Assembly: GCA_017439345.1 (NCBI GenBank)
Contig: JAFSJJ010000020.1
Coordinates: forward strand, 1-64,000
Source: Synergistaceae bacterium
GTDB taxonomy: Bacteria; Synergistota; Synergistia; Synergistales; Aminobacteriaceae
Reading direction: 5' to 3'
Length of the DNA stretch: 64,000 nucleotides
The position numbers were made by a program, and so were the translations under genes. Position 1 is the stretch's first letter. Every line of letters starts with the position of its first letter. Under the pieces are notes generated by a model that had not been told where the DNA came from, searched no databases, and was given only the letters and a program-made list of their open reading frames with translations. Shown here piece by piece: positions 32,480 to 36,291 of this stretch.

Positions 32480-32513
32480 AAATTTTCCCCCTGCTGACTC
32501 GCTCAACAAGGGG
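32476..32513 (-). terminator. Terminator of the amino-acid ABC operon
   Basis: On the minus strand CCCCTTG pairs with CAGGGGG (32507-32513 with 32487-32493, one G-U pair), followed by AAAATTTTTATTTT. Confidence 0.7.
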
Positions 32514-32523
32514 ACTTAATATC

Positions 32524-33280: not shown

Positions 33281-34102
33281 TTACCTCCTGCCCCTGCTGA
33301 GCCACTCTTCAAGTTTCCTGACAAATCGAGTCAAGAGCATGACTATGACAAGATATATAATCGCGACCATGACTAACGGCTGAGAGTGTTCGAGAGTCAA
33401 CGCCTGGATATTCTGGCCTGCGCGTGTCAAGTCATCGATACCGATATAACCTGCAACGGAAGTTTCTTTTAACAACGCAATGAACTCATTAAATAACATG
33501 GGAATAATATTTCTCAACGCTTGAGGCAGCACAACTTTTTTCATTGAAGTCCCGTACGTTAATCCAAGAGAGCGCGCTGCTTCCATTTGACCGGGATCAA
33601 TTGACTCGATTCCTCCCCTGAAAATTTCTGCTATATATGCTCCTGAGTTCAACCCAAATGCTAAGATTGCAATATACTGAGTGTTCAAGTCTCTGGCTGA
33701 AGCAAAAATTGTGAAGTTCCAAATTAATAACTGCACCATTGCCGGAGTCCCTCGCAAGACAGTGACGTAAGTGTTAGCAATTGCATTCAGAACGGGAATA
33801 TGTGCGCCTCCCTTGTGAGCTACTCGAATAACGCTGAGAATTAACCCTACAACGAGTCCGATTAACGTAGCTCCTGAAGTCATGAATAACGTAGACTTGA
33901 GACCGTCTACAAGCATCATATAACGGCGATCTTTAATGAAGTTCTGATAAAATCTCCGGTTGAAGTCAGCCCACGCAGCCTCAGTGAAGAAGCCTGAGTC
34001 ATAAAGCAGATACAGCAGGAACAAGCCGAATATCGCTAAAACTATATCGCCCCGGCCTGCCCCTGAATAAGTGTGTGAACGTGAATTATTTCTCATAGTC
34101 AT
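33281..34102 (-). CDS. Polar amino-acid ABC transporter permease
   Basis: 273 residues of the HisMQ/GlnP type. A single hydrophobic helix near residues 20-35 precedes the core of about five helices. The coupling-helix EAA motif is visible as EIFRGGIESIDPGQMEAARSLGLT, and LRGTPAMVQLLIWNF is conserved. Its start overlaps the end of the binding-protein gene by 17 bases, and the ATPase follows 7 bases downstream. Confidence 0.92.
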   Translation of the reverse strand: MTMRNNSRSHTYSGAGRGDIVLAIFGLFLLYLLYDSGFFTEAAWADFNRRFYQNFIKDRRYMMLVDGLKSTLFMTSGATLIGLVVGLILSVIRVAHKGGAHIPVLNAIANTYVTVLRGTPAMVQLLIWNFTIFASARDLNTQYIAILAFGLNSGAYIAEIFRGGIESIDPGQMEAARSLGLTYGTSMKKVVLPQALRNIIPMLFNEFIALLKETSVAGYIGIDDLTRAGQNIQALTLEHSQPLVMVAIIYLVIVMLLTRFVRKLEEWLSRGRR

Positions 34103-34892
34103 CTGCTCTGACTAACGCAACCTGCTTAGCTCCTACGACGTAATTATCAGAGAAGTCCATATTTTCCTTGCGTTCGTCCGTTACTGTGATGCCTGCGCAG
34201 ATAATATCTACTTTACCGGTTGATACTGCCATCGGGAGAGCGTCAAAGTTCATGTGTTCAACGACTAATTCTTTATCAAGTTTCTTAGCGATTGCAGCAC
34301 ACATCTCTATATCAATGCCTATGAATCCCGAACCTACTTTTAACTCATACGGTGCAAAGCCTGCCTCAGTTCCTACGAATAATTTACCGCCTTTAGCTCC
34401 CTTGTTGAAGTCTATATCTTCAGGCTTAACTGTCGTCATGTAGTCTTCTGTTAAGTATTTCGTGAAGATTTTATCAAGTGTCCCGTCTGCCTTGATCTCT
34501 GCAAGAGCTTTGTTGACCTGATTAACGAGTTCAGTATTTCCCTTCTTGAAGCCCATTGCGTAATTCTCTTCTGAGAGAGCCTCTTCCATGATTGCGAGTC
34601 CTTCGAATGAGTCAACGAATCTTTTTGCGGGAATCTCGTCCATGACTATAGCGCGTAACTTACCCTGCTTGAGTGCTGCAACTGCGTCAACGTATTTCTC
34701 GTAAGTAGTGAGTAATTCGCCCTTCTTGTCGCCGAGTAAATCTTCAGCTAAGAACTGTCCTACAGTGCCTCTCTGAGCCGCTAACTTCTCCGTCTTGAGC
34801 TGTGAGATGCTCTTTAACTTGGCCGGTGAGTCAGCTCCGAAAGCAGATGAGCATAATACTAGAATGAATAATAATGCAAGAAATTTCTTCAT
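34086..34892 (-). CDS. Amino-acid ABC transporter substrate-binding protein, circularly permuted
   Basis: 268 residues with a signal peptide (FLALLFILVLCSSAFG). The family 3 binding-protein sequence is present, but in swapped order. Residues 26-150 are what is normally the second half (SISQLKTEKLAAQRGTVGQF, KQGKLRAIVMDEIPAKRFV, TLDKIFTKYL). After a linker (TEDYMTTVKPEDIDFNKG), residues 168-268 are what is normally the first half (GKLFVGTEAGFAPYELK, FIGIDIEMCAAIAKKL, STGKVDIICAGITVTDERK, MDFSDNY). It ends at the hinge where ordinary members continue. All ligand-site motifs remain, including the carboxylate-binding Arg of TDERK. It is the first gene of the operon. Confidence 0.88.
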   Translation of the reverse strand: MKKFLALLFILVLCSSAFGADSPAKLKSISQLKTEKLAAQRGTVGQFLAEDLLGDKKGELLTTYEKYVDAVAALKQGKLRAIVMDEIPAKRFVDSFEGLAIMEEALSEENYAMGFKKGNTELVNQVNKALAEIKADGTLDKIFTKYLTEDYMTTVKPEDIDFNKGAKGGKLFVGTEAGFAPYELKVGSGFIGIDIEMCAAIAKKLDKELVVEHMNFDALPMAVSTGKVDIICAGITVTDERKENMDFSDNYVVGAKQVALVRADDYEK

Positions 34893-34938
34893 GATGAAAG
34901 TTTTACCTCCTAAGATAAATTTTTATTTACAGCGCAAG

Positions 34939-34956: not shown

Positions 34957-36291
34957 TCACACGTTCATAACTTTACTTGCAACGGCGAAATAAAGAGTCA
35001 AACTCCCTGCATCTACAATAGTCGTAACTATAGGCGAGGCCATCAAAGCAGGGTCAAAACCTACGGCCTTAGCGAGAAGGGGCAGCATTCCTCCGATTGT
35101 CTGGGCAAATATGACTGTCCCGAAAAGACTTATCCCGACAGTTACAGACAATAATAAATCTCCGCTCATTGCATATTTATATATCAGGTTCACGAGGGCT
35201 AAACCTCCTCCGACAATGAGACTGACTTTTAACTCTTTAAATAAAACTTTCAGGGCATCCTTTAGCTTGAGTTCACCGACAGCAATACCTCTTATGACCA
35301 GAGTCGACGATTGAGAGCCTGCATTGCCCCCTGTGTCCATCAACATTGGGATCGAAGCAATTAGTGCGGGCAGAGCTGCAAACACTGACTGATAATGAGT
35401 GATTATTGCTCCTGAGAAAGTCGCCGAGATCATTAAGACCATCAGCCAAATAACGCGCTTTCTTGCAAGTTCTCCTACGCTCATATCGAGATAAGGCTCA
35501 TCCATAGGAAGCATAGCGGCCATCTTGTGAAAGTCTTCGGTGCTCTCTTCCTCTAAGACCTGCATAGCATCATCGACCGTAACAATTCCGACTAAATGAT
35601 TTTGAGAGTCTACAACTGGAATAGCCATAAAGTCATATTTCTGAAATAGTTCCGTAACTTTCTCTCTGTCATCATTCGTATTAACGCTGATTATATTTGA
35701 GTCAGTCATGATGTCGCAGATTTTATCTTCATATTTTGAGAGCAGCATTGTTCTTACAGTAACGACTCCGATTAACACGCCTCTTGTATCAATGACGTAG
35801 CATGTATATAGAGTCTCTTTGTCAGTGCCTACTTCTCGAATATGCCTGAAAGACTCTTCAACGTTCATGTCTGGCTTAAGAGAAATATACTCAGTTGTCA
35901 TGATACTACCTGCTGAGTCCTCTTGATATTGCAAGAGCTGATTTATTCCCCTTCGAGTCTCAGGGCTTGCGTTCTCTAATATTCGCTTCACAACGTCTGC
36001 GGGTAACTCTTCGACCAAGTCGGCAGCGTCATCAAGAAATAATTCATCGACAATGCGTCCGAGTTCTGGTGCTGTGAGCTGTGAGACAAGAGCTTCTTTC
36101 GTATCAGGAGTCAAATAAGCGAATACATCTGCGGCCAAGTCCCTACTGAGTGCCCTGAATAATATAACGCGTCCTTCAGGCTCAAGTTCTTCAACAGCGT
36201 CTGCAATATCTGCTTCGTTCATGTCTTCAGTGAGGAGTCTTAAGTCTTTAATGTTCTTGGATTCAACGAGTGATTTTATACTTTCGAGCAT
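34957..36291 (-). CDS. mgtE: Magnesium transporter MgtE
   Basis: 444 residues with the full MgtE layout: an N-terminal helical Mg-sensing domain (about 1-130), tandem CBS domains (about 130-255), a connecting helix, and five membrane helices. The pore-helix signature IPMLMDTGGNAGSQSSTLVIRG is at about 312-333. It is a Mg2+-gated channel in the inner membrane. The 5' region on the minus strand shows no recognisable Mg-sensing riboswitch. Confidence 0.95.
   Translation of the reverse strand: MLESIKSLVESKNIKDLRLLTEDMNEADIADAVEELEPEGRVILFRALSRDLAADVFAYLTPDTKEALVSQLTAPELGRIVDELFLDDAADLVEELPADVVKRILENASPETRRGINQLLQYQEDSAGSIMTTEYISLKPDMNVEESFRHIREVGTDKETLYTCYVIDTRGVLIGVVTVRTMLLSKYEDKICDIMTDSNIISVNTNDDREKVTELFQKYDFMAIPVVDSQNHLVGIVTVDDAMQVLEEESTEDFHKMAAMLPMDEPYLDMSVGELARKRVIWLMVLMISATFSGAIITHYQSVFAALPALIASIPMLMDTGGNAGSQSSTLVIRGIAVGELKLKDALKVLFKELKVSLIVGGGLALVNLIYKYAMSGDLLLSVTVGISLFGTVIFAQTIGGMLPLLAKAVGFDPALMASPIVTTIVDAGSLTLYFAVASKVMNV

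Follow-up and report, generated by a model that had tools for sequence, protein, structure and literature searches.

The gene under study lies on the minus strand of the window (the whole stretch of 64,000 nucleotides that was analysed, from a gut bacterium of the Synergistaceae) and encodes an amino-acid-binding protein, followed downstream on the same strand by the genes of an ABC permease and an ABC transporter ATPase (Table 1). The permease start overlaps the stop of the binding-protein gene by 17 nucleotides, and such an overlap or close spacing is kept in relatives. The permease scores 63.1 bits with TIGR01726 (cut-off 42.2) and the ATPase 134 bits with ABC_tran (cut-off 25): a HEQRo/3TM-type permease and a GlnQ-like ATPase adjoining a binding-protein gene on one strand are the make-up of a PAAT importer, and the operon is intact, as the original prediction had it. 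No sigma-70-like promoter was found directly upstream of the binding-protein ORF; the terminator-like hairpin behind the ATPase gene belongs to a class of which no more were found than in shuffled sequence. The neighbouring gene on the same strand, recognised by eye as that of an MgtE-like magnesium transporter (window positions 34957-36291, minus strand), ends 64 nucleotides before the start of the binding-protein gene.

Table 1. Features of the locus in the window, and Bacillota lipoproteins with a second cut point (positions within their own loci)
Feature	Position	Strand	Basis or remark
Permuted SBP_bac_3 amino-acid-binding protein, 268 aa, ATG start	34086..34892	-	ORF, profile and PDB matches
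Shine-Dalgarno sequence AGGAGGT, 12 nt 5' of the ATG	34905..34911	-	read from sequence
Signal peptide MKKFLALLFILVLCSSAFGA	34833..34892	-	cleavage after residue 20 inferred from sequence
Block normally the second half, residues 21-152; contains Q40, D85, Y111	34437..34832	-	
New linker over the former C- and N-termini, residues ~149-167	34392..34448	-	limits approximate
Block normally the first half (lobe 1), residues 168-265; contains E176, F179, F216, T236, R241	34098..34391	-	
Amino-acid ABC permease, 273 aa	33281..34102	-	BPD_transp_1, HEQRo_perm_3TM
ABC transporter ATPase, 249 aa	32524..33273	-	closest curated model GlnQ, below the GlnQ cut-off
Terminator-like hairpin, 12 pairs and T-rich tail, 3' of the ATPase gene	32486..32514	-	consensus match only
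Second-cut-point Bacillota lipoproteins	L170:585-1550, L171:1393-2217, L176:1396-2262		permease and ATPase genes downstream

The binding protein is unusual in the order of its parts: the signal peptide leads into what is usually the second block (lobe 2 together with the C-terminal return to lobe 1); a linker follows, and the usual first block comes last. The new termini fall at the first inter-lobe cross-over, the hinge. Both the direct joining of the signal peptide to the former middle of the protein and a new linker of 18-20 residues had been predicted; the block order with MKKFLALLFILVLCSSAFGA at the N-terminus agrees with the former and the linker found, about 20 residues long, with the latter.

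Several independent comparisons give this order. The Pfam family SBP_bac_3 (PF00497) matches the protein in two stretches, the better of which (residues 172-265, profile positions 2-94, the normal first half; 113.2 bits, E 1e-32) lies far above the curated cut-off of 26.4 bits and places the protein in the family, but the two halves stand in the reverse of the profile's order; the protein is therefore classed as a permuted variant of SBP_bac_3 and not as an ordinary member. In a phmmer search of the PDB, residues 169-263 correspond to residues 10-105 of AncQR (4zv1) and residues 25-147 to residues 108-231, which yields the two offset diagonals that had been proposed as a check for a natural circular permutation. 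When the blocks are restored to normal order, a single match to AncQR (139.5 bits) covers residues 4-227, and almost all the other solved binding proteins also align in one stretch. Models of the two blocks (C for the normally second, N for the normally first), built from 30 normal-order Synergistota proteins, place C before N in the window family and N before C in normal homologues. The E-values, and an order conserved in 30 loci of other genomes, exclude a chance origin of the signal. None of the best 60 PDB matches listed for a permuted profile was a single-domain chain with this order.

The residues that hold the ligand have survived the rearrangement. In an alignment with Escherichia coli GlnBP, T70, R75, D157, F13 and F50 of GlnBP correspond to T236, R241, D85, F179 and F216 of the window protein, so that this core is retained, as predicted, including the contacts to the alpha-amino and carboxylate groups of the ligand backbone (T236, R241 and D85). 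D10, K115 and H156 correspond to E176, Q40 and M84, of which AncQR shares E176 and Q40; because these three positions differ from GlnBP, side-chain specificity is not predicted.

An AlphaFold2 model computed from 38 aligned permuted sequences has a mean pLDDT of 96.5 and a pTM of 0.90. Foldseek aligns in sequence order only and gives partial superpositions for a permuted protein: the first match is the GlnPQ tandem 6h30, the next are OpuAC, OpuBC and EgtU (TM about 0.5, 12-14% identity), and a match of lobe 1 to a glutamine-binding protein spans 83 residues with 1.0 A rmsd and 43% identity. The confidence of the model and these partial matches suggest that the protein folds as an ordinary two-lobed clamp. 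The gene is under purifying selection: dN to five relatives is 0.12-0.14, while dS is at least 1.4 or saturated, mostly the latter. Intact operon, retained ligand core, purifying selection and a confidently predicted fold all favour the earlier view that the protein is probably functional.

By analogy with its family, the protein most likely works as the ordinary binding subunit of a polar-amino-acid ABC importer. It would be exported to the periplasm as a free protein and bind an L-alpha-amino acid between its lobes, the carboxylate presumably held by R241 and T236 and the amino group by D85; the loaded protein would then dock on the dimer of the adjacent permease with its ATPase, and import would be driven by ATP as in type I importers. 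The original prediction had also proposed that the swap alters which lobe meets each transmembrane half first. This part finds no support: permutation changes connectivity and the position of the termini but would not be expected to change the place of the lobes in space, and in a protein predicted to be free in the periplasm chain order sets no order of docking. That the protein is instead a domain-swapped dimer or a receptor outside transport is very improbable. Permuted constructs of a ribose-binding protein did have swapped elements (reported in PMC10601554), but here the AlphaFold2 monomer model is confident over the whole length, linker length is conserved, and the gene is coupled to those of a permease and an ATPase.

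The permuted order is shared by relatives. Of 40 loci retrieved in a scan of species genomes, 30 are from Synergistota and have C-then-N order (65-84% identity), two are partial and eight, mostly from Clostridia, have normal order. All 30 permuted relatives have a permease ORF directly downstream, often overlapping. Within the genus, a match running across the linker is present in each of 43 sampled genomes (the window's own included), and 38 of the 43 have an orthologue with at least 70% identity; the rest have fragments of the orthologue and/or a paralogue of 53-57% identity. In the phylum as a whole, full-length matches with 66-84% identity were found in the window's genus (g1) and in g13, g8 and g6, and with 49% identity in g14, all five genera belonging to one family; most other Synergistota genera gave weak or half-length matches only, with normal order wherever this was checked. 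The proposal of an evolutionary rearrangement is supported.

In the window's own genome every SBP_bac_3 gene with both blocks detectable is permuted. The paralogues include one on contig C5 (53% identity), one on contig C6 (41%) and a cluster on contig C36 (L061, G000:C36:40000-54000) of five adjacent, divergent binding proteins of permuted type ('VAVTGDLPPIDF' type; the C block was not called in one of the five), followed by a permease ORF (L061:4484-5170). These data bear on the suspicion that the block order is an artefact, produced when assembly or binning misjoined a gene of normal order. The genome is indeed a draft of 46 contigs; however, the same order and the same downstream permease recur in the 30 relatives, whose genomes were assembled independently, the genome itself has ten permuted genes (the window gene included) on seven contigs, and reading frame, signal peptide and linker are intact. 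Conservation across independent assemblies refutes the artefact, and its probability is practically nil.

Permuted order is the rule for family-3 binding proteins in the genus. The permutation itself was correctly foreseen, but the view of it as one odd gene was not: it is genus-wide, occurs also in Bacillota and arose more than once. Two genus-mates have a 762-aa ORF (L101:4967-7255 and L102:3157-5445) with an N-terminal part resembling a sodium:alanine symporter, as judged by eye, and a normal-order family-3 domain; the genus is therefore not free of such domains.

Among Bacillota, the permuted unit was found in at least 16 of 398 sampled genomes, each checked with the block models (a lower bound, as at most six candidates per genome were scored). 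Free-standing permuted lipoproteins occur in the Bacillota genomes reached through loci L056, L057 and L060, and normal-order kin with the same type of operon are also present in this phylum (L182, L183, L190). Two groups are cut elsewhere. The lipoproteins of L170, L171 and L176 (Table 1) start about 30 residues into the second block and carry the missing piece at their end ('...GKKIGVQIGTTGDLAITELVEGK' in L170), an arrangement present in three of the 398 genomes; judged by their sequences, these proteins appear to be permuted at a second cut point, and an AlphaFold2 model of L171, computed with two relatives (three sequences only), has a pLDDT of 33.8. The lipoproteins of L167, L169 and L173 show a third pattern: their start lies about 10 residues inside the second block, their last residues are 'GPEDLK' or similar, and their C-to-N linker is longer, 32-33 residues by domain ends.

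Permuted units are also found fused to permeases, both in the taxonomic order of the window organism and in Bacillota (L142, L143, L145, L160, L161), and normal-order tandems exist among the relatives (L165, L166); tandem forms of the kind needed as intermediates of a permutation thus exist. The largest fusion is a single ORF of 3252 aa (L097:3848-13606, G105:C39) with 12 consecutive permuted binding domains and a C-terminal permease domain confirmed by Pfam (PF00528); its leading C block was missed by the model and recognised by eye. Another ORF of 2254 aa (L098:3161-9925, G100:C62) has eight permuted binding domains. In the arrays the distance from C to N is 12-16 residues, mostly 15, whereas that from N to C varies from 4 to 18 (1-4 in normal proteins). 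With near-constant C-to-N and variable N-to-C spacing, the unit is most likely the permuted C-N domain, and a reading of the arrays as normal-order units is ruled out. Open frames of 1000-2261 aa were seen in more than ten genus-mates among the matches listed, with none listed for the window's genome.

The fusions raise the possibility that the free-standing permuted protein is the product of a split fusion of permuted binding protein and permease. Such fusions exist in the same taxonomic order and in Bacillota, the two genes at the locus overlap by 17 nucleotides, and the permease domain of L160 is among the closest non-Synergistota matches to the window permease. Yet L160 is the only fusion that stands among free-standing kin, the other fusions forming a separate clade of binding domains (98/93), and either direction of change fits these data; we regard a split fusion as unlikely.

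How often the permutation arose was examined in trees of the binding proteins, with blocks re-ordered and aligned to common models, and of the permeases; both trees are unrooted and have a weak backbone, and since the groups were defined by block order after the first tree had been seen, p-values are to be taken as a guide. The normal-order score of L163 on the first tree proved to be an artefact of a truncated locus. The window family forms one clade (100/100) inside a larger, mostly Bacillota group that contains both orders. The AU test rejects the grouping of all permuted forms in one clade, both for the binding proteins (p-AU 1e-6) and for the permeases (p-AU 7e-6). It does not reject a clade of the window family and the free-standing Bacillota forms (p 0.21); with the fusions added, the clade is rejected on the binding-protein tree (p 0.023), though a similar grouping on the permease tree is not (p 0.07).

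One ancient permutation, ancestral to every permuted family-3 protein including the window family and followed by reversions to normal order, would agree with a hinge cut at nearly the same place and a C-to-N linker of 13-20 model-corrected residues in most permuted groups, and with the unrejected clade of window family and free Bacillota forms. It is nevertheless decidedly improbable: both trees reject a grouping of all permuted forms, inclusion of the fusion lineage is rejected on the binding-protein tree, two groups have other cut points, and each return to normal order would need a further duplication and trimming. Permutation has happened more than once in the family, in Synergistota and in Bacillota: at least two events, probably three or more. 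They are taken as gains and not losses because the permuted order is uncommon across the family as a whole; unrooted trees by themselves cannot tell the two apart. We tentatively suggest, at somewhat less than even confidence, that permutation is recurrent and perhaps selected, with at least three events, at least two cut points and units that build permease-fused arrays of up to 12 domains per chain. If so, a chain of 12 domains would mean 24 per transporter should the permease dimerise.

The most plausible route is duplication and truncation. A normal gene would have been duplicated and fused to give N-C-N-C; loss of the first N and the last C block would leave C-linker-N, in which the former inter-domain linker serves as the new one. 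GlnPQ illustrates this: its SBD1-SBD2 tandem (6h30) aligns with residues 23-265 of the native window protein in one stretch that starts in the second block of SBD1, crosses the inter-domain linker (14 residues; PMC8025302) and ends in the first block of SBD2, just what this route predicts. Taken as a whole, we are highly confident in a PAAT-importer binding protein, permuted at the hinge by duplication and trimming, in a family that has been permuted repeatedly.

It is rare for a natural permutant to have close relatives in normal order as well as visible tandem forms. As likely parents, intermediates and products coexist here, the duplication-truncation route is directly testable, and evolution is seen repeatedly re-cutting a common nutrient-uptake protein. 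The proteins are natural variants in which to ask whether tether point and hinge connectivity tune clamp dynamics in transport, and they are ready-made scaffolds for amino-acid biosensors. In annotation they are easily overlooked: standard family models silently divide permuted proteins into two partial matches.

In comparison with known systems, the window protein resembles the family-3 proteins GlnH/GlnBP, HisJ, LAO and ArtJ in sequence family, ligand-contact core, operon type and predicted fold, and differs from them in its swapped blocks, its termini at the hinge and the extra linker. Natural permutation is known from other binding proteins. CPSARST found OpuAC to be related in this manner to ProX, molybdate-binding proteins and CysB (PMC2395249). 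This group is a natural permutation of class II binding proteins like the one described here, and OpuAC, OpuBC and EgtU are near fold matches; however, it comprises other families with other ligands and permutants below 24% identity, in contrast to the close kinship of permuted and normal forms here, and the resemblance is one of fold only, with no OpuAC family match in the window protein (Pfam, E 0.001). TpMglB-2 (Tp0684), the 'Type Ic' glucose-binding protein of Treponema, is a natural permutant that has kept ligand binding (PMC4990184); unlike the window protein, it has the class I sugar-binding fold, is cut inside the N lobe and has gained a fourth cross-over. SBP_bac_3 is the sole Pfam match of the window protein, with no match to a class I sugar-binding family. 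For family 3 (SBP_bac_3), no report of a natural circular permutation was found in the open-licence literature. The permease-fused proteins of L142, L143, L145, L097 and L098 share the C-then-N unit of the window protein, with a linker of 13-16 model-corrected residues, but have 1-12 units per chain, and their aligned units are 23-30% identical to it. GlnPQ (6h30; PMC8025302) probably represents the kind of intermediate involved: its stretch from SBD1 lobe 2 through SBD2 lobe 1 is collinear with the window protein. Both of its domains are complete, in normal order and fused to the permease; the window has one permuted domain and a separate permease ORF, and is not a fused importer of the GlnPQ type with its tandem domains.
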